Source: a virus. From it: a stretch of DNA of 24,183 nt. A program made the position numbers and the translations under genes. The stretch covers positions 1 through 24,183 of the IMG/VR virus record IMGVR_UViG_3300037119_005966; one strand, given 5' to 3'. Positions 1,885 through 13,418 of this stretch are shown here, piece after piece; the stretch's first letter is position 1; every line of letters starts with the position of its first letter. The notes beneath the pieces are model-generated. The model saw nothing but the letters and a program-made list of their open reading frames with translations. It had not been told where the DNA came from and did not search any database.

Positions 1885-2152
1885 GCAGCGCATCCGGGTT
1901 GTCGCGGCGCGAAAGCGTCGAGGAAAGTCCGGGCATCCCGTGGCCGTCTACCACGCGGACCGTTGGAGGGAGGCTTTACGGCCGGTTGAACCTCGCCGGC
2001 ACCGAAGGGATGCGATCCCAAGTGTATCGGCCGGACGGGGCTGATCTGGTGGGAGCGCCGGTAGCGAGTAATCGCCCGGGACGGGTACCGCCTGCCGCCC
2101 GTCAGAAAGATGGCAACCTGAAAACCAGGACCCGGCTTACAGGGTGCGCTGC
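1885..2152 (+). ncRNA. rnpB: RNase P RNA (compact bacterial type)
   Basis: This is the catalytic RNA that matures tRNA 5' ends. The 5' core GAGGAAAGTCCGGGC (1920-1934) and the 3' core CCCGGCTTACAG (2130-2141) are the two strands of the universal P4 region. P1 is an 11-bp helix joining 1885-1895 to 2142-2152 and fixes both ends. P2 is GGTTGTC with GGCAACC. P3 is CGGCGC-GAAA-GCGTCG with a GNRA loop. CAGAAAGATGGCAACC resembles conserved region V. At about 268 nt it is shorter than usual bacterial RNAs (roughly 330-420 nt), so some peripheral helices must be missing. The usual ACAGAA before the 3' core reads CCAGGA here. No RNase P protein gene is seen in the window, so the host protein may be borrowed. 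Its 3' end overlaps the promoter of tRNA array 1. Confidence 0.88.
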
Positions 2153-2177
2153 AACTGTCTCGGATGTGTGATACAGT
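2149..2177 (+). promoter_or_regulatory. Promoter of tRNA array 1
   Basis: The 12-mer GTGTGATACAGT (2166-2177) is identical at all three tRNA arrays and contains an extended -10 (TG-A-TACAGT). CTGCAA (2149-2154) is a possible -35 at 17 bp, overlapping the last bases of the RNase P RNA. About 75 nt of GC-rich leader without a gene (2184-2258) follow before the first tRNA. Confidence 0.75.
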
Positions 2178-2258: not shown

Positions 2259-2331
2259 GGGGCCTTAGCTCAGTAGGGAGAGCGTCGCACTTGCAATGCG
2301 AAGGTCAAGGGTTCGATTCCCTTAGGCTCCA
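2259..2331 (+). tRNA. tRNA-Ala(TGC)
   Basis: A full cloverleaf with acceptor GGGGCCT/AGGCTCC and anticodon loop CTTGCAA on stem TCGCA/TGCGA. No CCA is encoded; the trailer is CTCC. Confidence 0.95.
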
Positions 2332-2335
2332 CTCC

Positions 2336-2408
2336 GGTCCGCTAGCTCAGCAGGGAGAGCAGCGCCTTTACACGGCGAAGGTCGTAGGTTCGATTCCTAC
2401 GCGGACCA
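2336..2408 (+). tRNA. tRNA-Val(TAC)
   Basis: The acceptor GGTCCGC/GCGGACC is perfect. The anticodon loop is TTTACAC, and T stem GTAGG/CCTAC is present. The trailer is CTCC with no encoded CCA. Confidence 0.93.
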
Positions 2409-2412
2409 CTCC

Positions 2413-2485
2413 GGACGATTAGCTCAGTAGGGAGAGCGCCACGGTGACAACGTGGAAGTCGCTGGTTCGAGTCCAGCATTGTCCA
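2413..2485 (+). tRNA. tRNA-Val(GAC)
   Basis: The acceptor is GGACGAT/ATTGTCC, with anticodon stem CCACG/CGTGG and loop GTGACAA. G34 would read GTC and GTT. No CCA; the trailer is CTCC. Confidence 0.92.
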
Positions 2486-2489
2486 CTCC

Positions 2490-2563
2490 GCGTGTGTAGC
2501 TCAGTTGGTTAGAGCGACTGCTTGCCAAGTAGTAGGTCACGAGTTCGAATCTCGTCACGCGCT
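2490..2563 (+). tRNA. tRNA-Gly(GCC)
   Basis: The acceptor is GCGTGTG/CACGCGC, the anticodon loop TTGCCAA and the T stem ACGAG/CTCGT. The discriminator is T and the trailer CTCAT. Confidence 0.93.
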
Positions 2564-2568
2564 CTCAT

Positions 2569-2642
2569 GGTAGATTAGCTCAGTTGGTTAGAGCGCCGAT
2601 CTGATAAGTCGGAGGTCCGAGGTTCAAGTCCTCGATTTACCA
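2569..2642 (+). tRNA. tRNA-Ile(GAT)
   Basis: The acceptor is GGTAGAT/ATTTACC and the anticodon loop CTGATAA on CCGAT/GTCGG. The trailer is CTTC with no encoded CCA. Confidence 0.95.
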
Positions 2643-2646
2643 CTTC

Positions 2647-2718
2647 TCCACCGAAGCATTGATGGCGATGCACTTGGCTCTTAACCTTGTGAATCGGGTT
2701 CGACTCCCGGCGGTGGGA
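2647..2718 (+). tRNA. tRNA-Lys(CTT), imperfect anticodon stem
   Basis: The acceptor is TCCACCG/CGGTGGG, the T stem TCGGG/CCCGG, the D stem GCAT/ATGC and the anticodon loop CTCTTAA. The anticodon stem CTTGG/CCTTG carries two adjacent T-T mismatches, so the gene may be weakly functional. It is the only Lys tRNA seen and reads AAG, the dominant Lys codon here. Confidence 0.8.
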
Positions 2719-2722
2719 TCAA

Positions 2723-2793
2723 GCGTGTGTGGTGTAGCGGTAACACACCAGCCTTCCAAGCTGGTTTCGCGGGTTCGAGTCCCGCCATGCGCT
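2723..2793 (+). tRNA. tRNA-Gly(TCC)
   Basis: The acceptor is GCGTGTG/CATGCGC, nearly the same 5' arm as tRNA-Gly(GCC). The anticodon stem CCAGC/GCTGG has loop CTTCCAA, and the T arm is perfect. The trailer is CTCC. Confidence 0.94.
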
Positions 2794-2807
2794 CTCCATC
2801 GCTCGGC

Positions 2808-2908
2808 GCTGGCCGAGTCGAGTCGCTTAACGCTGCGGGCTAGGAACTCCGTGGCGCGGGATCACGTTGCGACACGGTGAGTAGACACGATCCGGTGAGA
2901 GGCCGGCA
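2808..2908 (+). ncRNA. Structured tRNA-like remnant or unknown RNA in the gap of array 1
   Basis: This fills the only large gap of array 1. GCTGGCC (2808-2814) pairs with GGCCGGC (2901-2907), followed by A and CTT exactly like a discriminator and trailer before the next tRNA. Inside, an 8-bp stem (CGCTGCGG with CCGTGGCG) holds a 10-base loop GCTAGGAACT, and GGCCGAGT resembles a Ser D arm. No TTCRA T-loop exists. It could be a decayed class II (Ser-like) tRNA or a distinct RNA. Confidence 0.35.
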
Positions 2909-2911
2909 CTT

Positions 2912-2984
2912 GGCGACTTAGCTCAGCCGGTAGAGCGGCTCCCTGAAAAGGAGCGCGTCGTGGGTTCGATTCCCACAGTTGCCA
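2912..2984 (+). tRNA. tRNA-Phe(GAA)
   Basis: The acceptor is GGCGACT/AGTTGCC, the anticodon stem GCTCC/GGAGC with loop CTGAAAA, and the T stem GTGGG/CCCAC. The trailer is CTC. Confidence 0.95.
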
Positions 2985-2987
2985 CTC

Positions 2988-3060
2988 GCCGATGTAGCTC
3001 AGTTGGTAGAGCTCTGCTTTCGTAAAGCAGCGGTCAAGGGTTCGAGTCCCTTCGTCGGCT
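2988..3060 (+). tRNA. tRNA-Thr(CGT)
   Basis: The acceptor is GCCGATG/CGTCGGC and the anticodon stem CTGCT/AGCAG with loop TTCGTAA. The discriminator is T. Only two bases separate it from the next tRNA. Confidence 0.94.
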
Positions 3061-3062
3061 TC

Positions 3063-3131
3063 GCCTCGCGTTCAGGAGAAAGCATCGCCCTTTGTACGGC
3101 CGATGGATGGGTTCGAGTCCCATGTGAGGCT
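3063..3131 (+). tRNA. tRNA-Thr(TGT), very short D arm
   Basis: The acceptor is GCCTCGC/GTGAGGC and the T stem ATGGG/CCCAT is perfect. The anticodon loop TTTGTAC sits on GCCC-type pairs with one C-C mismatch. The D arm is only about TTC-AGGA-GAA, giving 69 nt overall. Confidence 0.8.
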
Positions 3132-3133
3132 TC

Positions 3134-3205
3134 GCTGGATTAGCTCAGTGGTAGAGTTCCTCCGTGGTAAGGAGGCGGCCGAGGGTTCGAATCCCTCATC
3201 CAGCT
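3134..3205 (+). tRNA. tRNA-Thr(GGT)
   Basis: The acceptor is GCTGGAT/ATCCAGC and the anticodon stem CCTCC/GGAGG with loop GTGGTAA. This is the last tRNA of array 1 and the third consecutive Thr tRNA. Confidence 0.95.
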
Positions 3206-3225
3206 TCGTACATCGCCCCGCACTA

Positions 3226-3263
3226 CGCCCGCCTTTAGGTCCGATCCCTTCTGGCGGGCGTTT
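3226..3263 (+). terminator. Intrinsic terminator after tRNA array 1
   Basis: CGCCCGCC (3226-3233) pairs with GGCGGGCG (3253-3260) and is followed by TTT. The loop is 19 nt. It separates the array from the promoter of the LPXTG-type gene. Confidence 0.7.
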
Positions 3264-3273
3264 GCGTTCTACC

Positions 3274-3302
3274 TTGATTCTTTACCTGGAATCTGGTACG
3301 CT
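3274..3302 (+). promoter_or_regulatory. Promoter TTGATT-17-TACGCT of the LPXTG-type gene
   Basis: TTGATT (3274-3279), a 17-bp spacer and TGGTACGCT (3294-3302) form a complete promoter. CCCTAG follows the -10, similar to the CCTAGG sites at the left end. Confidence 0.75.
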
Positions 3303-3340
3303 TCCCTAGTCCGAAAGTCATACCACGGAGGGGAGGAAAT

Positions 3341-3508
3341 ATGAATCCAACTGACCACCAGTACGGAAGCACGGTCCAGCAGCTTCACGACAGCGTCAAC
3401 GCGCTGCCTCTGACCGGCACCGACTTCGCGCTGATCGCAACCGTCGCTGTCGCGATGATCGTCGCAGGAATCCTGCTTCGATGCGCCGTTGCCCGCTCGC
3501 GCAGCTAG
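3341..3508 (+). CDS. Small membrane protein with LPXTG-like sorting signal (55 aa)
   Basis: A 55-residue protein. Residues 22-26 read LPLTG, residues 28-47 are a hydrophobic helix (FALIATVAVAMIVAGILL) and the tail RCAVARSRS is basic. This is the order of a Gram-positive sortase cell-wall sorting signal. The N-terminal 21 residues are short and polar with no signal peptide, so classical export is not explained; the helix may act as a signal anchor. The ATG is fixed by GAGGGGAGG 3 nt upstream and by its own promoter at 3274. Its TAG stop shares bases with the stop of the convergent gene (CTAG). It could modify the host surface or be displayed on it. The LPXTG match may also be coincidental. Confidence 0.75.
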   Translation: MNPTDHQYGSTVQQLHDSVNALPLTGTDFALIATVAVAMIVAGILLRCAVARSRS

Positions 3509-3738
3509 GGCAGGCGCAAATCAGACTCAGCGTCGCCCTGCCGTGTCAGAATCACGCGCAGGCCGATGGTGAACGGGTCACGCTGGCTTCCGCCTTGGAT
3601 CGCTGTGGCGGAAGTCAGCAAGTACCCGTCCTGAGCCGAGTTGAGGATGAACTTCCCGAGCGTCTCCGTGTCTGCCGGGTCTGACGGGACCGGGACCTCG
3701 ATCATCCGGGTGTCCTTGATTTCGGCCTTGGTACTCAT
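3505..3738 (-). CDS. Unknown 77-aa protein
   Basis: The family is not recognised. The sequence suggests a small alpha/beta fold: an N-terminal charged strand, a helix (DTETLGKFILNSA) and two beta stretches (GYLLTSATAI, FTIGLRVILTR). No membrane segment or metal motif is present. Its ATG overlaps the TGA of the upstream phosphoesterase gene (ATGA), so the two form a two-gene leftward operon with coupled translation. The stop codon overlaps that of the opposing LPXTG-type gene, leaving no room for a terminator between them. Confidence 0.75.
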   Translation of the reverse strand: MSTKAEIKDTRMIEVPVPSDPADTETLGKFILNSAQDGYLLTSATAIQGGSQRDPFTIGLRVILTRQGDAESDLRLP

Positions 3739-4445
3739 CGCTCACCAGCCTTTCGTCGGGCAGCCTCGTCTAGCTGCTCTTGGGTTGTCTCCGGGTACTC
3801 GCCGAGGATCACCGCGTCGAGCAGCAGCTTGAGGTTGACCGGCTTGTACTTGGTCTGCTCAAGCGACAGGTTGATGTGGTTGCGCAGGAACGGAACGAAC
3901 TCGTCGCGGCTGTAGCCGTTGTTGTGGATGTGGCCGTGGATGCGAATGTCTCGCTGCGGGTGCATCTCACGGCCGTCGTCCTCAAGGGACCACGGGTAGT
4001 GGCTGAACGACACCAGCTTGGCCGCCGAGGACTCGTCGTTGGGCTTCGTCAGCGCCATGCCGGAGGCCGTGTTCGGAAACACCTTGATCGAGAACGGCCG
4101 CGTCAGCTTGAAGCCGCTGTCGCGGTAGAAGCTGTAGCGCTGCCGGTCGTGATTGCCGGCAATCAGCAGCTTGCGCGCGCCCGTGAGCTCGGGAGCGGTC
4201 AGGTTCTTGAACCGCGCGTTCGATCGGTAGCACAGGTCGCCAAGGTGAAGCACCGTCGCGTCGTCGGGTACCTCCTTGCGCCACTCTGCGATCATCACCT
4301 GCTCGTGGTCGAGCGGGCGGTGACAGAAGCCCACGATGTTGTCATGGCCAAAATGTGTGTCTGACACGAGCCATGTCGTCGCGGGGTCAATATCGTCTCT
4401 GATCTTCTCTGTGGCGCGACTCGGACGCGCCTTCTGTCGGCTCAT
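3735..4445 (-). CDS. Calcineurin-like metallophosphoesterase (236 aa)
   Basis: A binuclear metal phosphoesterase. Motifs appear in family order: SDTHFGHDN (D29, H31), HLGDL (D70), GNHD (97-100), FSHYPW and IHGHIH. The 236-residue length fits a single catalytic domain. Phage enzymes of this family act on phosphodiesters or nucleotides and some remove RNA 2',3'-cyclic phosphates; the substrate here cannot be read from sequence. The start at 4445 is preferred over an upstream in-frame codon because GGAAGGAGG lies 6 nt before it and a TGGTACGCT promoter lies 27 nt upstream. It is divergent from tRNA array 2. A role in RNA end repair near tRNAs is speculation. Confidence 0.88.
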   Translation of the reverse strand: MSRQKARPSRATEKIRDDIDPATTWLVSDTHFGHDNIVGFCHRPLDHEQVMIAEWRKEVPDDATVLHLGDLCYRSNARFKNLTAPELTGARKLLIAGNHDRQRYSFYRDSGFKLTRPFSIKVFPNTASGMALTKPNDESSAAKLVSFSHYPWSLEDDGREMHPQRDIRIHGHIHNNGYSRDEFVPFLRNHINLSLEQTKYKPVNLKLLLDAVILGEYPETTQEQLDEAARRKAGER

Positions 4446-4471
4446 TGAGCCTCCTTCCGTTGATTGCAAGC

Positions 4472-4480
4472 AGCGTACCA
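4472..4480 (-). promoter_or_regulatory. Extended -10 TGGTACGCT for the phosphoesterase operon
   Basis: It reads leftward toward the gene starting at 4445 and lies 30 bp from the rightward tRNA promoter at 4510, making a divergent control region. Confidence 0.6.
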
Positions 4481-4509
4481 CTTTGCGGCCTCCCACGAGC
4501 GGCGAGGAC

Positions 4510-4521
4510 GTGTGATACAGT
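4510..4521 (+). promoter_or_regulatory. Promoter of tRNA array 2
   Basis: GTGTGATACAGT, identical to the 12-mers at arrays 1 and 3, contains the extended -10 TG-A-TACAGT. No good -35 is visible at 17 bp. The first tRNA starts 11 nt downstream of the -10. Confidence 0.7.
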
Positions 4522-4531
4522 GTCGGGACTC

Positions 4532-4611
4532 GTCGGGTATCCGCCTGGGACGCGGAAGCGGGCTGTAAACTCGCTGCCTCTGGCTATGTGGTTCGATTCC
4601 TCTACCCGGCA
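4532..4611 (+). tRNA. tRNA-Tyr(GTA)
   Basis: A class II tRNA with acceptor GTCGGGT/ACCCGGC, anticodon stem GCGGG/CTCGC with loop CTGTAAA, and variable arm GCC-TCT-GGC. The T stem TGTGG/CCTCT has two T-T mismatches. Confidence 0.88.
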
Positions 4612-4614
4612 TAC

Positions 4615-4698
4615 GGAAGGTGAACTCGCAAGGCGCGAGACCGGATTCGAAACCCGGAGGTCGCTTCGGCGGCAGGCGTTCGACTCGTCCTCCTTCCG
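4615..4698 (+). tRNA. tRNA-Ser(CGA)
   Basis: A class II tRNA with acceptor GGAAGG/CCTTCC, discriminator G, anticodon loop TTCGAAA on CCGG/CCGG and a long variable arm. Its 5' half is nearly identical to tRNA-Ser(GCT) at 4855. The trailer is CTCAA. Confidence 0.9.
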
Positions 4699-4703
4699 CT
4701 CAA

Positions 4704-4774
4704 GTCGCGATGGCCGAGGGGCGAGGCGGCGGGCTGCAAACCCGTCCACGCAGGTTCGAATCCTGTTCGCGACT
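4704..4774 (+). tRNA. tRNA-Cys(GCA)
   Basis: The acceptor GTCGCGA/TCGCGAC is perfect and the anticodon loop CTGCAAA sits on GCGGG/CCCGT. The trailer is CTCGC. Confidence 0.93.
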
Positions 4775-4779
4775 CTCGC

Positions 4780-4850
4780 TCGGGACTCGTCTAACGGCAG
4801 GACAGGTGGTTTTGGCCCACCGAATCAGGGTTCGAATCCTTGGTCCCGAA
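4780..4850 (+). tRNA. tRNA-Gln(TTG)
   Basis: The acceptor TCGGGAC/GTCCCGA is perfect, and the anticodon stem GGTGG/CCACC has loop TTTTGGC. Confidence 0.93.
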
Positions 4851-4854
4851 TCTC

Positions 4855-4937
4855 GGAAGGTGAACTCGCAAGGCGCGAGGGCCGGTTGCTAGCCGGTGCG
4901 GTCCGCAAGGGCAGGCGTTCGAATCGTCCTCCTTCCG
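4855..4937 (+). tRNA. tRNA-Ser(GCT)
   Basis: A class II tRNA with acceptor GGAAGG/CCTTCC, anticodon stem GCCGG/CCGGT with loop TTGCTAG and discriminator G. It shares its 5' half with tRNA-Ser(CGA), suggesting duplication followed by anticodon change. Confidence 0.92.
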
Positions 4938-4942
4938 CTCAC

Positions 4943-5027
4943 GGAGGGTGAACCCGCAAGGCGCGGGGACCGCCTGGAAAGCGTCTCGGCGGCTTCTGCC
5001 GCTGTGTTTCGAGTACACCGCCCTCCG
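4943..5027 (+). tRNA. tRNA-Ser(GGA)
   Basis: A class II tRNA with acceptor GGAGGGT/GCCCTCC, anticodon loop CTGGAAA, variable arm with CGGCGGC and discriminator G. The anticodon stem needs one bulged C. Its D arm matches the two other Ser tRNAs. Last in array 2. Confidence 0.9.
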
Positions 5028-5033
5028 CTCTAG

Positions 5034-5039
5034 TACCCT
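5034..5039 (+). promoter_or_regulatory. -10 box TACCCT, leaderless spacing
   Basis: TACCCT is followed by 6 nt and the ATG at 5046. It lies directly after tRNA array 2 and has no ribosome site downstream. Confidence 0.5.
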
Positions 5040-5045
5040 TAGCCT

Positions 5046-5672
5046 ATGGCCAACAAGAACCACAAGGGATCGCCGCTCGAACACGTCCGCAACCTCTTCG
5101 AAAGCAAGGGGCTGGACGCTATCTGGAAGTGGGCATCGGACGGCAAGGGCGCCTCCGAGAAGGCCGACCGCTTCCGCATCCTCGAAATCTTCGCGCAGCG
5201 ACGCCGCGACTCCGACGAAGGCTCCAAGATCGATTGGGGCAAGGTCCGCAAGGTCTACGCCGAGGAACGCGACAAGTGGATCAAGCGCGCCGAGCAGAAC
5301 GCGCAGCCCGACTTCGAGACCACGCTCGGGCCGCCGCATTGGGGCGGAGCTCGTGACTTCTTCGACGCGATCATCTACCCGATCGCGCTCGACATGGGCA
5401 TGTCGCCGGACTACGACGACAAGGAGACCGGCCACGCAGTCGGCGGCGACCACGACCCGAACGTCCGCAACGCCTTCGCCGAGGACTTCCCGACGTTCAG
5501 CGGCGCCAACTTCGCCAACGCGGTCGCCCGCAAGCTAGGCAAGGCGTCCGGCAGCGTCGGCACCTACGCCTTCATCTACTACAAGTGGAACAACATCACT
5601 TGGCGCGTCCAGATTCTTTGGGCGGTCGAGGGCCACTTCAACCACGTCCACATCGGCGCTCGCAGCACATGA
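5046..5672 (+). CDS. Putative M15-like peptidase / cell-wall hydrolase (208 aa)
   Basis: The C-terminal third has two features spaced as in zinc-dependent M15-type peptidases: GGDHDPNVRNAFAEDF, matching the H-x(n)-D metal-ligand segment, and FNHVHIG near the end, matching the final H-x-H ligand motif often written DHVHVG. The N-terminal 90 residues are charged and helical (KVRKVYAEERDKWIKRAEQN). No signal peptide is present. If the reading is right it cleaves peptidoglycan cross-bridges for lysis or entry. The ATG lies 6 nt after a TACCCT box. The stop overlaps the ATG of a tiny membrane protein (ATGA), a common lysis-cassette arrangement. The overall family match is moderate. Confidence 0.6.
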   Translation: MANKNHKGSPLEHVRNLFESKGLDAIWKWASDGKGASEKADRFRILEIFAQRRRDSDEGSKIDWGKVRKVYAEERDKWIKRAEQNAQPDFETTLGPPHWGGARDFFDAIIYPIALDMGMSPDYDDKETGHAVGGDHDPNVRNAFAEDFPTFSGANFANAVARKLGKASGSVGTYAFIYYKWNNITWRVQILWAVEGHFNHVHIGARST

Positions 5673-5788
5673 ACCTCGTCGGACTGATCGTCGTGCTGCT
5701 CTGCTTTTGCATCGGCTACGCGGTTGCCGGCATCATCGCGGCCTGCGTCCTAGCGCTGATCGCGCTGCTGTTCTTCCACGTCCGCTAA
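5669..5788 (+). CDS. Very small membrane protein (39 aa)
   Basis: MNLVGLIVVL is followed by a continuous hydrophobic stretch to residue 37 and ends FFHVR. One long or two short transmembrane helices fill almost the whole chain. The ATG overlaps the TGA of the putative hydrolase, so it is translated by coupling. Position after a candidate cell-wall hydrolase suggests a holin-like or lysis-accessory role, but 39 residues is small for a holin. Its TAA stop overlaps the stop of the opposing gene. Confidence 0.65.
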   Translation: MNLVGLIVVLLCFCIGYAVAGIIAACVLALIALLFFHVR

Positions 5789-6039
5789 TGCACGCCGGGA
5801 CACCCGTGCGGGTGTGCCTTGCGGTACTGATGCTCCAAAGTCAGTTGTGCAATCTCGCGGACGCTCTCCTCGTCAAGTTCCGGATTCGCGTTCACGCTGA
5901 TTGAGAACACCGGCGTCTTAGGTCGGCCGGTGTACGTACGCGCGATCCAGAGCGTCGAGCCGCGCCACGGGACCTTGTCGAGCGAGAAGTCCGGCCAGTT
6001 CGGCACCGGGTTGTACGGGACCTCCCTAGGGTCCGCCAC
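5785..6039 (-). CDS. Unknown 84-aa protein
   Basis: The family is not recognised. The GTG at 6039 is preferred because GAGAGGG lies upstream and because it overlaps the end of the previous leftward gene, as do its neighbours; a longer frame from 6090 would overlap that gene more. Sequence features are a Pro-rich N-terminus (EVPYNPVPNWPDF), beta stretches (STLWIARTYTG, PVFSISVNAN) and a C-terminal helix (DEESVREIAQLTLEHQYRKA). It is the last gene of the CCA-adding enzyme operon. Confidence 0.65.
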   Translation of the reverse strand: MADPREVPYNPVPNWPDFSLDKVPWRGSTLWIARTYTGRPKTPVFSISVNANPELDEESVREIAQLTLEHQYRKAHPHGCPGVH

Positions 6040-6223
6040 GGATGCCCTCTCGGAAGCCCTGTACGAAGCCCTTGCCGCAGAAGATCGCAAACAGCACCCC
6101 TAGGATCACAAGCGCCACCAAGAACACGACGAGGGCCATGAACGCGAACATCCAGAAGGCGCCCGTGACGCAGATCAGGAACCCTAGGGCTAGTACCTCT
6201 TCCCATCCGTAGACGTTATCCAC
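6026..6223 (-). CDS. Small two-helix membrane protein (65 aa)
   Basis: Residues 9-33 and 34-50 are hydrophobic (LALGFLICVTGAFWMFAF, VVFLVALVILGVLFAIF), followed by a short Gly/Arg-rich tail (FVQGFREGIRGG). The GTG at 6223 overlaps the TAA end of the CCA-adding enzyme gene, indicating coupled translation. The family is unknown and no link to tRNA maturation is visible beyond the operon. Confidence 0.7.
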   Translation of the reverse strand: MDNVYGWEEVLALGFLICVTGAFWMFAFMALVVFLVALVILGVLFAIFCGKGFVQGFREGIRGGP

Positions 6224-7709
6224 GAGCGCCCGCCTTCCGCGCGCGCTGTAGTTGCCACTCGCGCTCCAAGCGAACGCCGGAGGGCTGACAGACGACCTCG
6301 TCCAGCACGGCGGCGAGCGCCGCGCCGATTTCGCGACCCTGGAATCCCTCGGCGATCAGATCGTTGCCGTTGATTTCGAGGTCGCCGACGCCGCAGGGGA
6401 CGCCGTCCGCCTGCGCGGCTGCGCGCACGCCTTCCAGATGCCCGACGACCTCAAGGTGGCCCGCGTTGGCCTTGCCCTTGCCGGTCAGGTCGCACATGCG
6501 CATCAGGTATAGGTCGCGCAGCATCGAGTCGCCCAAGCGCACGCGCTCGCGGCGGACCTTGACCGAGTTGACCTTGGCGACGCCGACCATGTGGTTCTGG
6601 ATCAGCACCGAAACGTCGTCGGTGAGACGCTTCTCGGCGTTGAGGCGCTTGGCAGCGCGGCGCCAAATGTCCACGCCCGCGTCCTCGTGGTTGCGGGGCT
6701 TGCGCATGTCTGAGTCCAGTACGTTTCGGCCTGTGGCGACGATAGACGCCGCCCACTGAGCGTCGGAAGGCTCGTAGTAGTGCTTGCGGCCGTCCTTGCC
6801 GATCCACGCCGTCTCGGGCTTCGCCGAGTCGTGAAACAGCAGCGCCCACCGGACGCGCAGGGGCGCGTCAACGTGGGCCGCCGTTTCCAGCGCCGTGAAG
6901 GTGTGTTCGTCAGTGGTCAGGTCGTGGTAGCGCGAAGCCTGATTGAACCCGAGCATGGGTTCCAGTTCGGGTAGCACCACCGCCAGCACTCCGGAGTCGC
7001 GAGCGACTCGCAGCGCCTTCGCGGGACACTGGCCCATCAGCATCTTGCTCATTTCCTCGATCACGGTGCCGCTGACTCCGGCCGCCGTCAGGCCGGTGAC
7101 CGCGTCCGCGTGCGCGCACATGAGCGCGTAGGTCTGCGCCTCCAACTCGTAGTCGAGCGTGGAGACGAAGCGCAGCGCGCGCAGGATGCGCAGGGGATCG
7201 TCGCGGAACGAGTCCGCGTGCGTGACCTTGACCCGGCGCCGCAGCAAGTCCTCGCGGCCGCCCAAGGGATCGATCAGTTCGGCCTCGGTGTCAGGCGACA
7301 GAGGGCCGTAGTACAGCGCGTTGAAGGTGAAGTCGCGGCGCTCCGCGTCCTCGCTCAGTTCGAGCGTGGGCTGCAAGACGATTTCGAAGTCGCGGTGGCC
7401 GGGTCCGGTGCTGACCTCGGTGCGGGGCAGCACGATTTCAACCAGCCCGAGGCCGCGCCCGCCGACGCGCCAACCGGCGTGGCGACCGTCGCGCAGCTTG
7501 AGGGGCGAGACCGAGAACTTCTCGATCCGAGCCTCGCAGCCGTAGGCCATCAGACGCCGGTAAATGTCGTCCAGCGTCGCGTTGCGGATCATGTAGTCGC
7601 AGTCCTTGGTCTTGCGGCCCAAAACGTCGTCGCGAACCGAGCCGCCGACGCGGTAGGCTTCGAGGCCAAGGGTGCGGATGAAGCTGTCGGTTCGTTCGGT
7701 TGCTGCCAT
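6216..7709 (-). CDS. cca: tRNA nucleotidyltransferase (CCA-adding enzyme) with HD domain
   Basis: Class II CCA-adding enzyme of 497 residues, which adds or repairs the 3' CCA of tRNAs. The N-terminal catalytic domain shows GGSVRD (22-27), the metal-binding DCDY (36-39), RRDFTFNALYY and RDDPLRILRALRF. A central HD domain follows (RYHDLTTDEHTF and LLFHDSAKP), then a helical C-terminal region for tRNA binding. The start at 7709 is chosen over longer frames because it begins at the conserved N-terminus and because TACGTT of a TGGTACGTT box lies exactly 6 nt upstream, the leaderless arrangement. None of the tRNA genes here encodes CCA, so this enzyme is their obvious partner. It heads a three-gene leftward operon. 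Confidence 0.93.
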   Translation of the reverse strand: MAATERTDSFIRTLGLEAYRVGGSVRDDVLGRKTKDCDYMIRNATLDDIYRRLMAYGCEARIEKFSVSPLKLRDGRHAGWRVGGRGLGLVEIVLPRTEVSTGPGHRDFEIVLQPTLELSEDAERRDFTFNALYYGPLSPDTEAELIDPLGGREDLLRRRVKVTHADSFRDDPLRILRALRFVSTLDYELEAQTYALMCAHADAVTGLTAAGVSGTVIEEMSKMLMGQCPAKALRVARDSGVLAVVLPELEPMLGFNQASRYHDLTTDEHTFTALETAAHVDAPLRVRWALLFHDSAKPETAWIGKDGRKHYYEPSDAQWAASIVATGRNVLDSDMRKPRNHEDAGVDIWRRAAKRLNAEKRLTDDVSVLIQNHMVGVAKVNSVKVRRERVRLGDSMLRDLYLMRMCDLTGKGKANAGHLEVVGHLEGVRAAAQADGVPCGVGDLEINGNDLIAEGFQGREIGAALAAVLDEVVCQPSGVRLEREWQLQRARKAGARG

Positions 7710-7715
7710 GGAGGA

Positions 7716-7724
7716 AACGTACCA
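7716..7724 (-). promoter_or_regulatory. Extended -10 TGGTACGTT, leaderless, for cca
   Basis: The hexamer TACGTT ends 6 nt before the cca ATG. It diverges from the TAGCCT box at 7750 on the other strand, so both genes share about 50 bp of control DNA. Confidence 0.65.
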
Positions 7725-7749
7725 CATCGGCGTCTGGCTGTCAAGCCGG

Positions 7750-7755
7750 TAGCCT
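7750..7755 (+). promoter_or_regulatory. -10 box TAGCCT, leaderless spacing
   Basis: GGTAGCCT followed by 6 nt and ATG at 7762. The same GGTAGCCT string precedes the starts at 11243 and 16217. Confidence 0.6.
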
Positions 7756-7761
7756 GTAGGC

Positions 7762-8412
7762 ATGGCACTAGCAAACGATTCTGTCCTCGTAACGCCCGGA
7801 AGCGGCGCCACGATCGCTACGCAGCTAGCGAACTCCAAGGAGCATCAGGTCACGATGCAGGCCGACGCCTCCGGCCACATCCTCGGCTCCAAGCCGCAGT
7901 ACCACTACACCATCGCCTCGCAGGTTCACGTAGCCTCGGCGAACTCCGTCCATTGGGACATGTACAACGCCGACGCGAGCGCGATTGTTCGTGTACTGTC
8001 GATCCGCCAGATTCCGAACATCACGACCGCCGTGACCGGCATCGTCTTCGATTGGCTGCTTGAGCGCACGACTTCTGCCGGCACCGGAGGCACGGCGCAG
8101 ACTGCATGGCTTGCAGACCTCAGCGACACGGCGCTCGACGCCGACATTACCTGCCGCTCGAAGCCGACCGGCGCTGCCGCGCAGTCCACCGACTTGCGCA
8201 GCTACTCGCTGTCGTCGGAAGAGACCAACGCGGGAACGATCCAAATTGCCTCGCAGGGCGGTCTCGAGCTCGTGCCGCCGCTGCTCGACGGGACCTCCGA
8301 CCAGCGAGGAAAGGGGATCGTCCTGCGCCAGAATCAGGGCATCCGCTGCGTCCAGGTCACCAACTCGAACGCGGGCAACACGGGCTGGTTGATCGGCTTC
8401 TCCGTGGAGTAG
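7762..8412 (+). CDS. Probable virion structural protein (216 aa)
   Basis: The family is not firmly recognised. The protein is rich in Ala, Ser and Thr, with alternating beta-type stretches, short LASD-type turns and no Cys cluster, ending NTGWLIGFSVE. It is the first gene of a rightward block whose next member carries LamG domains, so a tail, head-decoration or fibre role is likely from position. The start is set by TAGCCT 6 nt upstream. The next ATG lies 3 nt after the stop. Confidence 0.7.
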   Translation: MALANDSVLVTPGSGATIATQLANSKEHQVTMQADASGHILGSKPQYHYTIASQVHVASANSVHWDMYNADASAIVRVLSIRQIPNITTAVTGIVFDWLLERTTSAGTGGTAQTAWLADLSDTALDADITCRSKPTGAAAQSTDLRSYSLSSEETNAGTIQIASQGGLELVPPLLDGTSDQRGKGIVLRQNQGIRCVQVTNSNAGNTGWLIGFSVE

Positions 8413-8415
8413 GCC

Positions 8416-10086
8416 ATGAGCCTGCTCCTTCTATTCGGTCAAGGGAGCACCTCTCCCTTCCAGTCGTTCGTTGAGGGTACCCTTGCGCCGCAGCATTGGG
8501 TGCGTCTCGGTGAGCCTTCGGGGACCGTCGCCGAGGATCGCGGCAGCATGCCGCAGAACGCTACCTACGTCAACACCCCGACGATGGATGTGACCGGCGC
8601 GGTCCAGAGCGCGGGCGGCAACGATGGCGCGGTCACCCTTAACGGGACCAATGAGTACCTGACGACCCCGTGGACGATTCCGGCCGGATCGGTGCGCACC
8701 TTCATTTGGGCGGTCAAGCGCACCAGCAACTCGGGCTACGACCCTATCTTCGGGTCCTATCAGGCGAGCCTTGACATTGTCTATGCGCCGGTCTCGGGTC
8801 CGGAGCAGCTTTGGATTTTCGGGATCGACGGCAGCAACGCGATGCCATGCGATTGTGCTTTCCCGCTCACGGACGGCAACTGGCATACGCAGGTTCTTGT
8901 TATCGATCAGCCGGGCGACACGGCTGAGTTGTGGACTGACGGGGTCACTACCGGAGCGCAGCCCTCCGGGTCTGCCGACTTGACCGGCTCGACCGCTCCG
9001 ATCGCGCTCGGTCACGACCTCAGCGGCGGCGAGTATCACGCCGGATCACTGGACGAAGTGATGATCCTAGACCGCAGGATCACCGCTGCCGAGATTGCGC
9101 AGTTTCAGGCGCATTTCGAAACGGGGCTTGCGGCGGAGGCGTTGGCTGACGCGCCCAACGCCTACTACGGGATGGGGTCCGCTGCGGCTGGTTGGGACTT
9201 CTCTGGAAACGGTGCGCACATTGACTACACGAGTGGCACCCCCACAGCCTCGGCGTCGCTTGTTGCTGGCGGAGTCGAAAGCGGTGCGCAGCACCTTGAC
9301 GCAGGCGATTTGTGGGGTACTGACGACCCGGCGCATGAAGTCGGAGACTCCTTCACCTACGAGTGCGTAGTCAAGCCGGGCCTAGTTGCCGGTCCAGATG
9401 CCTCGCGACGACTAATGAGCAGCTTGTCCGGCTCCGGACCCGACCTCAACTTCTATTGGGACTTCGGCGAGGAGATGTACATTCTTACTCTGAACAAGAT
9501 GGACATTTCCGAGGTCGTCTCGTCGGCCCCGCTGGTTGCAGAGCTACAGACCGTCATTGTTGCCTGCACCAAGGACGGTGCGACGACAAAGCTGTACATC
9601 AACGGCGACGACGTTACCGGGTCGGTAACGAACGCGACGATGGCGAGTTCTGAGCAGTTCTTGATCGGGGACTTCGGCGACGTGCCGATTGACATTGACG
9701 AAGTCGTTGTCTACGATTACGCGCTCTCCCCGGCGAGGGTCCTTGCCCACGCGACAGCCGCTAACCTCACGGACAGCACGCCGCCCGTCGCGACGCTACT
9801 GACTGGACCGAGCGCAACGCGCATTAGTACGCAAGCTGGAAAGGACTCTACCGACGTGACCTTCGAGATGAACGAGGCCGTCCAAGCCTACAAGGTGAAG
9901 CTGGTCCCGGCCTCGGGCAGCCCGCACACCGCCGGCACTCAGATCGAGGCGGGTGGTGCCAAGGCAGCAGGTGAGGACGTAAGCATCACACTCACCGACG
10001 ACGAGCTCGTAGCGGCCGGGGCAACCGAAGGAAACCTAGTGGTCAAGCTGTTCGGGCAGGACTTGGCCGGGAACTGGTCGAGCTAG
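8416..10086 (+). CDS. Tail fibre-like protein with two LamG domains and an Ig-like domain (556 aa)
   Basis: Residues about 25-230 and 235-450 are two concanavalin/LamG-type beta sandwiches. Each shows the family pattern of a displayed ligand face, a WHTQVLVID or TVIVACTKDG strand, then GSLDEVMILDRRITAAEI or IDIDEVVVYDYALSPARV near the end. The last 100 residues form an Ig-like domain similar to the C-terminus of the next gene product (VKLVPASGS...AGTQI, VVKLFGQDLAGNWS). Such proteins bind host-surface glycans. The ATG lies 3 nt after the previous stop with only a weak GGAG, suggesting coupling. Confidence 0.8.
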   Translation: MSLLLLFGQGSTSPFQSFVEGTLAPQHWVRLGEPSGTVAEDRGSMPQNATYVNTPTMDVTGAVQSAGGNDGAVTLNGTNEYLTTPWTIPAGSVRTFIWAVKRTSNSGYDPIFGSYQASLDIVYAPVSGPEQLWIFGIDGSNAMPCDCAFPLTDGNWHTQVLVIDQPGDTAELWTDGVTTGAQPSGSADLTGSTAPIALGHDLSGGEYHAGSLDEVMILDRRITAAEIAQFQAHFETGLAAEALADAPNAYYGMGSAAAGWDFSGNGAHIDYTSGTPTASASLVAGGVESGAQHLDAGDLWGTDDPAHEVGDSFTYECVVKPGLVAGPDASRRLMSSLSGSGPDLNFYWDFGEEMYILTLNKMDISEVVSSAPLVAELQTVIVACTKDGATTKLYINGDDVTGSVTNATMASSEQFLIGDFGDVPIDIDEVVVYDYALSPARVLAHATAANLTDSTPPVATLLTGPSATRISTQAGKDSTDVTFEMNEAVQAYKVKLVPASGSPHTAGTQIEAGGAKAAGEDVSITLTDDELVAAGATEGNLVVKLFGQDLAGNWSS

Positions 10087-10090
10087 GCGC

Positions 10091-10096
10091 TATCCT
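10091..10096 (+). promoter_or_regulatory. -10 box TATCCT, leaderless spacing
   Basis: Six nucleotides before the ATG at 10103 and just after the stop of the LamG gene. Confidence 0.5.
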
Positions 10097-10102
10097 GACC
10101 TA

Positions 10103-10777
10103 ATGGCCTCGCACTTCAACCTCGTCCTCGACACCACCGCGCCCGGTGGTGTCACAATCTCGCTAGCCGCTGGCGCTTCGCACACCGCTGTCCGCGCGAT
10201 CACCGCCACGATCGCCACTTCGGACGGCGACACGACCGGCTACCAGATGAAGATTTACGGTGACGTTGACGACACCGTGAACGCGAACATTCAGCCGACC
10301 GAAGGCGCGTCGTCCTGGATTTCGTTCAACACTTCGCAGGCTGTCACCCTCTCGACGGGCGACGGCTCCAAGACGGTCAACGTCAAGGTACGCGACGACG
10401 TTTACAACGCCTCCGGCGCATCGAGCGACTCGATCACGCTCGACACCACCGTCCCGGTTCTCACGATCACCGGACCGGACGTTTCCAAGGTCTCCAAGCA
10501 GACCGGCAAGCGCACCGCCTCGTTCAGCTTCTCGCCGGACACGGCGCTGACCGCCTACAAGGTCAAGGTCGTCCCGAACTCCGGCTCGCTAGAGAGCGCT
10601 GGAACTCAGATTCCGACGACCGCTGGCTCGACCAACATGAGCGGCGGCGCGGTGTCTGCGGCCGGTACGGTCAACTGCACCATCGACGGCGCCGACCTCG
10701 AAACGGCGTCCTCGGGCGACGGCTCCAAGGTCGTCAAGGTATTCGGACAGGAAGCCTCGGGCAGTTGGTCGGTGTAA
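10103..10777 (+). CDS. Ig-like repeat virion protein (224 aa)
   Basis: Two Ig-like units are visible. The first spans about residues 10-115 and ends DSITLDTTVPV. The second, residues about 116-224, closely matches the C-terminal domain of the LamG protein (YKVKVVPNSGS...AGTQI, VVKVFGQEASGSWS). It starts MASHFNLVLDTTAPG, similar to the next gene. Such domains decorate phage tails or capsids and may bind carbohydrates. TATCCT lies 6 nt before the ATG, so it may have its own leaderless transcript. Confidence 0.75.
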   Translation: MASHFNLVLDTTAPGGVTISLAAGASHTAVRAITATIATSDGDTTGYQMKIYGDVDDTVNANIQPTEGASSWISFNTSQAVTLSTGDGSKTVNVKVRDDVYNASGASSDSITLDTTVPVLTITGPDVSKVSKQTGKRTASFSFSPDTALTAYKVKVVPNSGSLESAGTQIPTTAGSTNMSGGAVSAAGTVNCTIDGADLETASSGDGSKVVKVFGQEASGSWSV

Positions 10778-10789
10778 GCTAAGAGGGCT

Positions 10790-11233
10790 ATGCCCTCCGC
10801 GTTTACGCTCACCCTTGACACTCACGCGCCCGCACTCTGGCTCGGACAGCCCGTGCTGCTCGGCGGGATGCTGCGGATTCCGTACGCAGTCGATGAGCCG
10901 TCGATCACCGAAGTCTTTGCCAACGCAAGCGGCTCCGGCGACCCGATCGAGGGGACGGTCAACGCAGAGTTTCTACTCTTCGACCTCGGCGGTGGAGAGT
11001 TTCCTGCCGGCACCGTCCACGTCAGCGTCCGCGACGAAGTCGGCAACGAGCTCGACTACAGTAGGCCCGTCTCGTTCTCGACCGTCGTTTTCCACGACGT
11101 AACGACGAAGATCGTGGACCCTCCGTCCGGCGCGATCCGGCCGCGCTACTACACTGGCGCGGTCGAACACAACGACCCGGTTCCGTCCGATGAGAAGTGG
11201 GGCGCACCGCCGAATCGGCGTGGCTTCCGGTAG
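10790..11233 (+). CDS. Ig-like virion protein (147 aa)
   Basis: The N-terminus (SAFTLTLDTHAPA) matches that of the preceding protein, and residues up to about 105 look like one Ig-like domain (GTVHVSVRDEVGNELD). The tail is Pro-rich and positively ended (EKWGAPPNRRGFR). It is probably a shortened paralog of the preceding gene. AAGAGGG close to the ATG may be the ribosome site. TAAGCT lies 9 nt upstream, so it does not strictly fit the 6-7 nt leaderless spacing. Confidence 0.7.
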   Translation: MPSAFTLTLDTHAPALWLGQPVLLGGMLRIPYAVDEPSITEVFANASGSGDPIEGTVNAEFLLFDLGGGEFPAGTVHVSVRDEVGNELDYSRPVSFSTVVFHDVTTKIVDPPSGAIRPRYYTGAVEHNDPVPSDEKWGAPPNRRGFR

Positions 11234-11236
11234 CCT
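11231..11236 (+). promoter_or_regulatory. -10 box TAGCCT, leaderless spacing
   Basis: GGTAGCCT is followed by 6 nt and the ATG at 11243. The TAG of this box is also the stop of the preceding gene. Confidence 0.55.
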
Positions 11237-11242
11237 ACAGGT

Positions 11243-11644
11243 ATGTCTTGGATTCGCCACAACTGGCTCGCCCTCGTCGTTCTCGTAGCGATCGTCGGCT
11301 CGTTTTTTGTCGCGCGCGCTGACTCGATCCAGCGTGACGCCGATCAGGCGGACGCGCTGATCGAGGGCTGCGTCAGTTCCAACACCGCGCGCGCCTTGGT
11401 AGCCGCCTTCCAGCACCGCACGGCAGATGCTCGGCGATCGACAGGTGATATTGGGATTGCAAACGACTACGATGCGTTCGCGCGAGGTCAAGAGAGCAAC
11501 CTAATCGCGGCCAAGTACACCGACGATCCTAGCGCCGCTGCTCAGGTGATTGTTCGCGAGGATGAAAACGGACAACTCGCCGTCGAACTGACACCGGAGT
11601 CCGAAGCGCTAATCAGCGAAAGCTGCGCGAAGTTCTACGGCTAA
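11243..11644 (+). CDS. Membrane-anchored protein, paralog A (133 aa)
   Basis: An N-terminal transmembrane helix (residues 8-24, WLALVVLVAIVGSFFVA) is followed by a soluble domain with two conserved Cys (EGC at about 43 and ESC at about 128). It aligns with the next protein over its whole length: GC..NTARALVAAFQH against SC..NSRSAIGSAWQH, and YTDDPSAAAQ against YIEDPTAAVQ. The Cys pair probably faces outside and could form a disulfide. The family is unknown; a lysis or superinfection role is possible. The start is set by TAGCCT 6 nt upstream. Confidence 0.72.
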   Translation: MSWIRHNWLALVVLVAIVGSFFVARADSIQRDADQADALIEGCVSSNTARALVAAFQHRTADARRSTGDIGIANDYDAFARGQESNLIAAKYTDDPSAAAQVIVREDENGQLAVELTPESEALISESCAKFYG

Positions 11645-11648
11645 GCCC

Positions 11649-12134
11649 ATGGACTTTCTACGGCGAAACGCCATGACTCTCATTGTGCTTGGCGCGATCG
11701 CCGCCTCGTTTTTCGTGGGGCGCTACGAAGCTGATCGGGCTGACGAACGCGCGCTTGCAGCCAACCTAGCCTCGTGTATGCGCGAGAACTCTCGCTCGGC
11801 GATCGGGTCGGCATGGCAGCACGAACTCGCCGACTTCGCGAACAACGCGGCAGAGCGCGAGCAGGTAATTCCGCTAGAGCAGCTTGTGCGCGGAAGCGAA
11901 GCCTACCTCTCGATCGCCAACTACATCGAGGACCCGACCGCTGCTGTCCAGACCCGCACGGTTCTACTCGACAACGGGACCGTGGCGCGCGTTCTGACGG
12001 AGCGATCCTCGGCGTTGATTCAGGAAGGATGCGAAAGGTCGTACGGCGCCTCGCCGGGTACCGCCGTGCCGCTCCCTCTCCCCGTAGCTGAAACAATTTC
12101 GCCTGCGGGAGCGCAAACGCGCGACGCTCCGTAG
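11649..12134 (+). CDS. Membrane-anchored protein, paralog B (161 aa)
   Basis: This is a tandem paralog of the preceding gene. An N-terminal membrane helix (MTLIVLGAIAASFFVG) is followed by the same two-Cys domain and an extra 28-residue Pro/Ala-rich tail (GTAVPLPLPVAETISP). The ATG lies 4 nt after the previous stop and no strong Shine-Dalgarno is visible, so coupling is likely. The gene ends 6 nt before the -35 of tRNA array 3. Confidence 0.72.
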   Translation: MDFLRRNAMTLIVLGAIAASFFVGRYEADRADERALAANLASCMRENSRSAIGSAWQHELADFANNAAEREQVIPLEQLVRGSEAYLSIANYIEDPTAAVQTRTVLLDNGTVARVLTERSSALIQEGCERSYGASPGTAVPLPLPVAETISPAGAQTRDAP

Positions 12135-12140
12135 CCCCGC

Positions 12141-12169
12141 TTGCAAACGTCAGCGGAGTGTGATACAGT
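12141..12169 (+). promoter_or_regulatory. Promoter of tRNA array 3
   Basis: TTGCAA (12141-12146), a 17-bp spacer and the shared 12-mer GTGTGATACAGT (12158-12169) are present. A 7-bp inverted repeat (CGGAGTG, CACTCCG; 12154-12178) brackets the -10 and may be an operator. The leader then ends in a CT dinucleotide run at 12214-12226. Confidence 0.8.
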
Positions 12170-12225
12170 TCCACTCCGGTTGAGCAACGGGTCGCGCCCC
12201 GCGCTCGATCGATTCTCTCTCTCTC

Positions 12226-12296
12226 TGCTTGGTGGGGTAATGGCAGCCCAATCGGTTCTGGCCCGATCAGTCTAGGTTCGAATCCTAGCCGAGCAG
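12226..12296 (+). tRNA. tRNA-Gln(CTG)
   Basis: The acceptor is TGCTTGG/CCGAGCA with discriminator G. The anticodon stem ATCGG/CCGAT has loop TTCTGGC and the T stem is CTAGG/CCTAG. The trailer is CTTC. Confidence 0.94.
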
Positions 12297-12302
12297 CTTC
12301 TC

Positions 12303-12374
12303 TGGTCCGTAGTTCAGTGGCAGAACGCCTCGCTGTTAACGAGGATGCCGCAGGTTCGAATCCTGCCGGACCAG
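12303..12374 (+). tRNA. tRNA-Asn(GTT)
   Basis: The acceptor TGGTCCG/CGGACCA is perfect and the anticodon stem CCTCG/CGAGG has loop CTGTTAA. The discriminator is G and the trailer CTTCAT. Confidence 0.95.
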
Positions 12375-12380
12375 CTTCAT

Positions 12381-12454
12381 CAAGGCGTAGGCCAGTCTGG
12401 TAGGTCGCTCCCCTCGGGAGGGAGAAGTCGAAGGTTCGAATCCTTCCGTCTTGA
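12381..12454 (+). tRNA. tRNA-Pro(CGG)
   Basis: The acceptor is CAAGGCG/CGTCTTG and the anticodon stem CTCCC/GGGAG has loop CTCGGGA. The trailer is CTCAC. Confidence 0.93.
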
Positions 12455-12459
12455 CTCAC

Positions 12460-12533
12460 GGAGACGTAGCTCAGTTGGTTAGAGTGCTTCCCTGTCACGG
12501 AAGAAGTCGCGGGTTCGAGTCCCGTCGTTTCCG
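12460..12533 (+). tRNA. tRNA-Asp(GTC)
   Basis: The acceptor is GGAGACG/CGTTTCC and the anticodon stem CTTCC/GGAAG has loop CTGTCAC. The discriminator is G and the trailer CTCAC. Confidence 0.95.
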
Positions 12534-12538
12534 CTCAC

Positions 12539-12610
12539 GCCGCGTTCGTCCAGTGGTTAGGATGCCGCCCTCTCAAGGCGGAGGCACGAGTTCGACTCTC
12601 GTACGCGGTA
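12539..12610 (+). tRNA. tRNA-Glu(CTC)
   Basis: The acceptor is GCCGCGT/ACGCGGT and the anticodon stem CCGCC/GGCGG has loop CTCTCAA. The trailer is CTCAA. Confidence 0.94.
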
Positions 12611-12615
12611 CTCAA

Positions 12616-12688
12616 GGCGCTGTGGTCTAATGGTCATGATGCCGGCCTTTCAAGCCGGACGATGCGAGTTCGAATCTCGTCGGCGCTT
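12616..12688 (+). tRNA. tRNA-Glu(TTC)
   Basis: The acceptor is GGCGCTG/CGGCGCT (first pair G-T) and the anticodon stem CCGGC/GCCGG has loop CTTTCAA. The trailer is CTCCC. Confidence 0.92.
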
Positions 12689-12693
12689 CTCCC

Positions 12694-12767
12694 GTCGCTG
12701 TAGCTCAGTTGGACAGAGTGCCTCCCTGCGAAGGAGGAAGTCGAAGGTTCGAGTCCTTCCAGTGACG
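12694..12767 (+). tRNA. tRNA-Arg(GCG)
   Basis: The acceptor is GTCGCTG/CAGTGAC and the anticodon stem CCTCC/GGAGG has loop CTGCGAA. G34 is unusual, since bacteria normally read CGN with an A34 that becomes inosine. The trailer is CTCC. Confidence 0.93.
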
Positions 12768-12771
12768 CTCC

Positions 12772-12840
12772 GGGGCTAAGGTCATGGCGACCAAGCGGAT
12801 TCCAAACCCGCAGGCCGGTGTTCGATTCATCGTAGCCCCG
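12772..12840 (+). tRNA. tRNA-Trp(CCA)
   Basis: The acceptor GGGGCTA/TAGCCCC is perfect. The anticodon loop TTCCAAA sits on GCGG/CCGC pairs, the D stem is GGTC/GACC and the discriminator is G. The trailer is CTTC. Confidence 0.92.
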
Positions 12841-12844
12841 CTTC

Positions 12845-12926
12845 GCGTCTCTGGCGGAATTGGTATACGCGCACGGTTTAGGCCCGTGTGTCTTACGACA
12901 TGAGGGTTCGACTCCCTCGGGACGCA
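12845..12926 (+). tRNA. tRNA-Leu(TAG)
   Basis: A class II tRNA with acceptor GCGTCTC/GGGACGC, anticodon stem CACGG/CCGTG with loop TTTAGGC, and variable arm TGTC-TTAC-GACA. The trailer is CTTCAC. Confidence 0.95.
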
Positions 12927-12932
12927 CTTCAC

Positions 12933-13005
12933 GCCTCTTTGGCTCAGTGGACGGAGCGCGCGGTTTCGGCCCGCGAGGTCCCGGGTTCGAATCCTGGAAG
13001 GGGCG
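12933..13005 (+). tRNA. tRNA-Arg(TCG)
   Basis: The acceptor is GCCTCTT/AAGGGGC and the anticodon stem CGCGG/CCGCG has loop TTTCGGC. The discriminator is G and the trailer CTTCAC. Confidence 0.94.
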
Positions 13006-13011
13006 CTTCAC

Positions 13012-13085
13012 GGTGTAGGTAGCTCAACAGGCAGAGCTCTCGGTTGTGGTCCGAGCGGTTGCGGGTTCGATTCCCGTCCTACACC
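13012..13085 (+). tRNA. tRNA-His(GTG)
   Basis: The acceptor is GTGTAGG/CCTACAC, and G13012 pairs with the discriminator C13085 as the G-1:C73 hallmark of His tRNA. The anticodon stem CTCGG/CCGAG has loop TTGTGGT. The trailer is CTCAT. Confidence 0.95.
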
Positions 13086-13090
13086 CTCAT

Positions 13091-13164
13091 CGGGGCATGG
13101 CGCAGTCTGGTAGCGCTCTGGCATGGGAGTCCAGAGGTCGCAGGTTCGAATCCTGCTGTCCCGA
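13091..13164 (+). tRNA. tRNA-Pro(GGG)
   Basis: The acceptor is CGGGGCA/TGTCCCG and the anticodon loop ATGGGAG sits on CTGG/CCAG with one C-T mismatch at the loop. The trailer is CTTC. Confidence 0.9.
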
Positions 13165-13168
13165 CTTC

Positions 13169-13250
13169 CGATCCGTGGTGGAACTGGTATACACGTCGTC
13201 TTGAGGAGGCGGTGCTTCACGGCATGAGGGTTCGACTCCCTCCGGATCGA
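13169..13250 (+). tRNA. tRNA-Leu(GAG)
   Basis: A class II tRNA with acceptor CGATCCG/CGGATCG, T stem GAGGG/CCCTC and anticodon loop CTTGAGG on a stem with one bulged G. The trailer is CTTC. Confidence 0.88.
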
Positions 13251-13254
13251 CTTC

Positions 13255-13338: not shown

Positions 13339-13342
13339 TCAT

Positions 13343-13414: not shown

Positions 13415-13418
13415 CTTC

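Follow-up and report, generated by a model that had tools for sequence, protein, structure and literature searches.

Does a phage whose genome is rich in tRNA genes encode the catalytic RNA that matures them? RNase P RNA is a textbook cellular ribozyme, and the maturation of phage tRNAs is usually credited to the enzyme of the host. The question is raised by IMG/VR virus record IMGVR_UViG_3300037119_005966, analyzed here over its whole length of 24,183 nt (hereafter, the window), in which a first-pass annotation had proposed a 268-nt RNase P RNA with P1, P2, a GNRA-capped P3 and P4.

An RNase P RNA with a replaced specificity domain

The proposed helices are present, and the covariance model for bacterial RNase P class A (RF00010), suggested as a check, matches the locus: the whole model covers positions 1886-2155 (+) at 56.9 bits, with an E value of 7.8e-17 for the stretch against all of Rfam and 8.2e-19 when only this family is searched. 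The match falls short of the 100-bit gathering score, and the RNA is consequently missed by a default Rfam scan. The features of the gene are listed below.

1885-2152 (+), RNase P RNA gene, from P1 to P1; RF00010 match, paired helices, conserved in relatives
1885-1895/2142-2152 (+), P1, 11 of 11 paired
1897-1903/2112-2118 (+), P2, 7 of 7 paired
1905-1910/1915-1920 (+), P3 hairpin, 6 of 6 paired, GAAA loop
1925-1933 with 2131-2138 (+), P4, 5' strand AAG-U-CCGGG with CCCGG-CUU, 8 of 8 paired around bulged U1928
1934-1939/2007-2012 (+), P5, fully paired
1940-2006 (+), replaced specificity domain of 67 nt between the P5 strands, no CR-II or CR-III motif
2016-2054 (+), P15/P16 region, with the L15 GGU motif at 2048-2050
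2016-2019/2051-2054, P15, fully paired, GGU 2048-2050 in its loop
2026-2045, P16, fully paired
2064-2075, P18-like hairpin, GNRA-capped, fully paired
2125-2138 (+), J2/4 (CCAGGA) and the P4 3' strand

The RNA shares with class A RNAs of RF00010 the helices P1, P2, P3, P5 and P15/P16, the bulged U of P4, the L15 GGU, which presumably contacts the tRNA 3' end, and a canonical J3/4, GAGGAAAG. It differs from them in its score below the gathering threshold, in the 67-nt specificity domain without CR-II or CR-III, in J2/4, and in being phage-encoded, within a tRNA array and without rnpA. The J2/4 sequence is CCAGGA in the window and ACAGGA in the RNA of L226, so that the consensus ACAGAA is met in neither; the other tabulated RNAs carry ACAGAA, except for one with ACAAAA. 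Owing to this deviation, reduced activity is possible, and the full activity of these two RNAs is left open. The single-sequence fold of the window RNA was unremarkable (z -1.45) and gave no support either way; its significance rests on the covariance model and on comparison. By its core structure, the window RNA is an RNase P RNA, but not a canonical class A RNA, and the earlier observation of this RNA is confirmed. Its description as "reduced" holds mainly in the sense that the specificity domain has been replaced, whereas the catalytic core and the L15 GGU are retained.

A tmRNA call by ARAGORN at 1731-2212, which overlaps the RNase P RNA, was rejected as pieces wrongly joined together. A tRNA-like element (about 1746-1822), with a 7-bp acceptor stem and a T arm, and no clear D arm, separates two small ORFs from the RNase P RNA.

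The phage contig and its tRNA arrays

Pfam matches to head proteins bear out the view that the genome is that of a phage, and the tRNA array reported downstream of the RNA was found, its tRNA-Ala starting about 100 nt beyond the RNA end. The contig also encodes a ribonucleotide reductase.

15791-18391 (+), portal protein, PF04860 (E 2.3e-41), phrog_2662; a long open frame, whose true start is perhaps internal
21642-22364 (+), prohead protease (S78), PF04586; marks the contig as phage
22400-23728 (+), HK97 major capsid protein, PF05065; marks the contig as phage
6216-7838 (-), CCA-adding tRNA nucleotidyltransferase, PF01743 (E 1.9e-14) and PF12627 (E 7.5e-07)
2259-3205 (+), first tRNA array, directly 3' of the RNase P RNA, no encoded CCA
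4532-4850 (+), second tRNA group (Tyr, Cys, Gln)
12226-13561 (+), third tRNA array, no encoded CCA

Rfam detected 27 tRNAs in the window and ARAGORN about 30. None of the 27 that were checked encodes CCA, and neighboring tRNAs are tightly packed, with gaps of at most 8 nt in 20 of 26 pairs, mostly of 3-7 nt.

Several further features of the contig were noted. After about 21 of the 27 tRNAs (2332-13567), CCA is replaced by CU, often as CUCC, CUUC or CUCA; allowing for one wobble, the sequence ACU might base-pair with the L15 GGU, which may reflect an adaptation to precursors that lack CCA. Inspection by eye of about 4616-5030 added three tRNA-like genes, probably for serine tRNAs, whose variable arms are long and which neither ARAGORN nor Rfam reported. 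Two genes for calcineurin-like phosphoesterases lie near the tRNA arrays (3735-4496 and 13971-14666, both on the minus strand), and the start of the contig (1-430) bears repeated short motifs containing CCTAGG (CCTAGGAACCCTAGG and variants), which are probably regulatory or origin-like.

Conservation and covariation in relatives

Relatives of the window were reached through homologues of the capsid protein and the reductase. In each of the four relatives whose sequence spans the site, the RNA occupies the same syntenic place. Rfam scored the RNA at 32.4 bits in G132 (80,254 b) and at 19.1 bits in G127 (80,397 b). In G120 and G125, Rfam found no RNase P RNA, and the RNA became visible when the syntenic gap that precedes tRNA-Ala was inspected.

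Across five sequences (the window and four relatives, with the strands chosen by eye), all pairs were formed in both P2 (35/35) and P4 (35/35), and swapping of the 3' strands between sequences lowered the pairing to 70% and 80%, respectively. The columns of P4 vary (AT/GC, GC/CG, CG/TG/TA, CG/GC and GC/AT), i.e., they exhibit compensatory changes. Since P4 hardly varies in ordinary bacteria, such changes constitute strong evidence that the helix is maintained. In P1, an RNA's own ends form 10.8 pairs on average, versus 6.8 with swapped ends. Loss of the P4 and P1 pairings in related phages, which would have refuted the first-pass annotation, was looked for and does not occur.

A mechanical scan of 335 kb (counting both strands) retrieved the window, L208 and L209 and nothing else; its criteria were a GRGGAA start with a bulged T, complete pairing of P4, a motif resembling J2/4 and 8 or more pairs in P1. 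The scan misses L228 and L226, and thus shows how specific these criteria are rather than how complete. A lineage-specific DNA pattern search yielded only members already known, and screening a genome collection with the capsid protein left the host unidentified.

Just upstream of the RNase P RNA, an element of 60-83 nt was observed that resembles the tRNA-like domain of tmRNA alone, with neither reading frame nor pseudoknots. A message-less tmRNA would be odd.

L228, 4702-4784, tmRNA-like RNA, RF00023 at 61.5 bits (E 1.3e-21), above the gathering score
L209, 2060-1978 (-), tmRNA-like RNA, RF00023 at 44.6 bits
L208, about 1329-1388, and window, about 1825-1883, tmRNA-like RNA, by eye and position only

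Distribution among IMG/VR records and cultured phages

The 15-base motif of the P4 5' strand occurs in 115 IMG/VR contigs. RF00010 was detected in 28 of 41, 25 of 39 and 20 of 36 records of three searched sets, the last of which includes one record that was obtained differently and is negative for RF00010 (L117). The 3' strand of P4 was absent from the search pattern; nevertheless, P4 with its bulged U pairs at 8 of 8 positions in 32 of the 33 RNAs examined and at 7 of 8 in the remaining one. A GGU that fits L15 is visible in nearly all of the RNAs.

In 34 IMG/VR records, the window and one relative among them, the RNase P RNA lies within a tRNA array, defined as at least 3 tRNAs in the surrounding locus, which spans 1.5 kb on either side of the RNA (less at contig ends). 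A tRNA on the same strand is located no more than 7 nt from the RNA match in 26 of these 34 records, often on both sides. Near-duplicates are present among them (e.g., G020/G038, G021/G064 and G014/G065), and the number of independent lineages is therefore smaller. A large terminase was also found in 21 of 42 selected records. High-scoring IMG/VR RNAs (about 334 bits, e.g., L119-L121 and L146-L148) that lack a tRNA array were treated as host DNA.

Among isolated phages, a BLAST search with the window RNA revealed nothing beyond the P4 motif. A blastn search with the RNA of L165 matched Microbacterium phage A3Wally, in which the RF00010 match lies at 93852-94072 (72 bits, E 5.1e-23), flanked by two tRNA genes. 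Big4, Zooman and one further record carry the RNA at 91% identity. The cultured phages A3Wally, Big4 and Zooman infect Microbacterium foliorum, and their genomes are complete. At the RNA locus of all three, no annotation of RNase P is given, which agrees with the earlier remark that such RNAs are rarely annotated in phages.

Matches in Microcystis phage MaAM05 and Acinetobacter phage MD-2021a were set aside, as their neighboring genes look bacterial. In the INPHARED entry MW495066.1 (MaAM05, our L210), fabI, engB, mtgA and glyS lie beside the RNase P RNA-like stretch, and this entry may contain bacterial DNA.

Remodelled specificity domains

A test for CR-III and the GUAAGAG motif separates the host-like copies, which are positive, from about 26 negative records, among them the window and the relatives tested. 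In the groups around G015, G020/G038 and G021, a shortened GGGUGAAAC-like element is kept, for which reason "altered" is a fitting term for these groups. A different core, GGGAG(G/C)C-hairpin-...-ACC, is common to the window, L208, L168, L167 and L188. By eye, the stem that encloses this core seems to covary, as GAGG/CCUC in the window and L208, GCGG/CCGC in L168 and GGUG/CACC in L226. Yet another core, CACUAAGC...AAGCA, was recognized by eye in L142, L165, L166, L185 and A3Wally.

Protein partner and CCA-adding enzyme

The first-pass annotation saw no gene for the RNase P protein, and none came to light in a wider search: RnpA (PF00825) was absent from all 42 RNA-bearing records (the window, two relatives of ~80 kb and 39 others), many of which are fragments, and from all three isolates, while the same search was positive in 10 of 14 control genomes. 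The lack of an RnpA gene in 45 records suggests that the host protein is probably borrowed.

The CCA-adding enzyme is encoded by the window, by both long relatives and by all three isolates, and in A3Wally it is annotated as a tRNA nucleotidyltransferase. Overall, it was detected in 15 of the 42 RNA-bearing records, many of them fragments, versus 2 of 23 controls without a detected RNase P RNA. These two are G120 and G125, which do in fact carry the RNA. The control records are shorter on average, and the contrast is thus only indicative.

Proposed function and alternative explanations

The observed RNA, conserved and covarying, located in a tRNA array that encodes no CCA and accompanied by a CCA-adding enzyme but no RnpA gene, is interpreted here as a working ribozyme that matures CCA-less phage tRNA arrays together with host RnpA. 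We assign this reading a probability of roughly 0.7; expression, catalysis, the use of RnpA and a preference for phage precursors are all inferred. In the proposed mechanism, the phage would supply an RNA that has a catalytic core (P1-P5, P15, the bulged U of P4 and the L15 GGU) and a replaced specificity domain, probably co-transcribed with the phage tRNA array. The RNA would most likely recruit host RnpA, and the mixed enzyme would cut the 5' ends of the tightly packed, CCA-less phage tRNAs, whose 3' ends would then be completed by the phage CCA-adding enzyme. Where the RNA abuts tRNAs, the cutting of those tRNAs may also free the RNA itself. Against a working ribozyme stand the J2/4 deviation, the missing specificity motifs and the finding of the CCA-adding enzyme in only 15 of 42 records, and no data on expression or activity are available.

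The absence of an RnpA gene, the remodelled specificity domain and the changed J2/4 of the window would also suit a decoy, i.e., an RNA that ties up host RnpA or pre-tRNAs and shuts off host tRNA maturation for the sake of takeover. We consider this unlikely, since a protein sponge would need neither the bulged U of P4, kept by compensatory change, nor the L15 GGU, and since the RNA resides in phage tRNA arrays that need RNase P. An active RNA could, alternatively, be steered toward different substrates, for instance host mRNAs or the adjoining tmRNA-like RNA. The replaced specificity domain and the presence of that tmRNA-like neighbor in relatives are compatible with this proposal, which appears no more probable than the decoy: no candidate target other than tRNAs can be named, and tRNA arrays are the constant companion of the RNA. 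Processing of the phage's own tRNAs, one of the two roles originally suggested, is favored over the other, a changed specificity of host RNase P, although sequence cannot decide between them.

Certain copies carried by phage contigs still have a host-like sequence (e.g., L123 and L180), as would be expected if a host rnpB had been picked up with a tRNA cluster and were decaying without function. For the RNAs as a whole such a passenger is quite improbable, since divergent copies retain their helices by compensatory change, which is not expected of decay, and their position is conserved in relatives. Bacterial contamination or chimeric assembly may account for certain IMG/VR and INPHARED matches that look bacterial, with host-like RNAs near contig ends or housekeeping neighbors. 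Against this explanation stands the same layout, shared by independent contigs whose capsid or reductase homologues are 60-80% identical, and the presence of the RNA in the genomes of cultured phages refutes it for practical purposes.

A broader hypothesis, which is tentative and for which we would claim slightly less than even odds, is that phage RNase P RNAs do not form one class but represent several independently remodelled lineages, which form mixed holoenzymes with host RnpA for tandem CCA-less arrays, have their tRNA-abutting ends matured by RNase P, and in many cases lie beyond the reach of current RNA models.

Relation to known systems and implications

In phage T4, tandem CCA-less tRNA precursors, in which a few nt separate neighboring tRNAs, need RNase P, and a T4 precursor for which efficient processing by RNase P prefers a 3' CCA has been described (reviewed in PMC11143913). 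T4 precursors are processed by the host enzyme, whereas the phage of the window encodes the RNA subunit itself. Jumbo and huge phages, as described in PMC7162821 and PMC7824862, possess tRNA arrays, a CCA-adding enzyme and RNA repair functions, and resemble the window phage in their large tRNA sets and CCA-adding enzyme. Term searches found no mention of RNase P in PMC13282480 or of ribonuclease P in PMC7824862, and no RNase P RNA is listed in the accessible part of PMC7162821. Megaphages were recognized because a full Rfam scan showed only tRNAs and a tmRNA in their genomes (PMC8172020). Extra, altered copies of RNase P RNA, for which horizontal transfer is suspected, have been reported in Mycobacterium austroafricanum and M. 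sp. YC-RL4 (PMC9569102). As far as the available sections of that source go, these copies differ from the present ones in residing in bacterial genomes, beside an endonuclease gene, and are not attributed to phages; the sequences were not compared. No published description of a phage-encoded RNase P RNA was found in open-access text, but the subscription literature was mostly not covered, and this absence is not proof.

The presence of RNase P RNA in both related and unrelated phages suggests that the equipment of some viruses includes a tRNA-processing ribozyme. A viral ribozyme with an exchanged substrate-reading half and no protein gene provides natural variants that bear on the roles of the specificity domain and L15, on how cleavage proceeds in tandem precursors separated by only about 4 nt, and on whether phages escape their dependence on host tRNA processing. 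Since complete genomes of cultured Microbacterium foliorum phages carry the RNA, these questions are directly testable.
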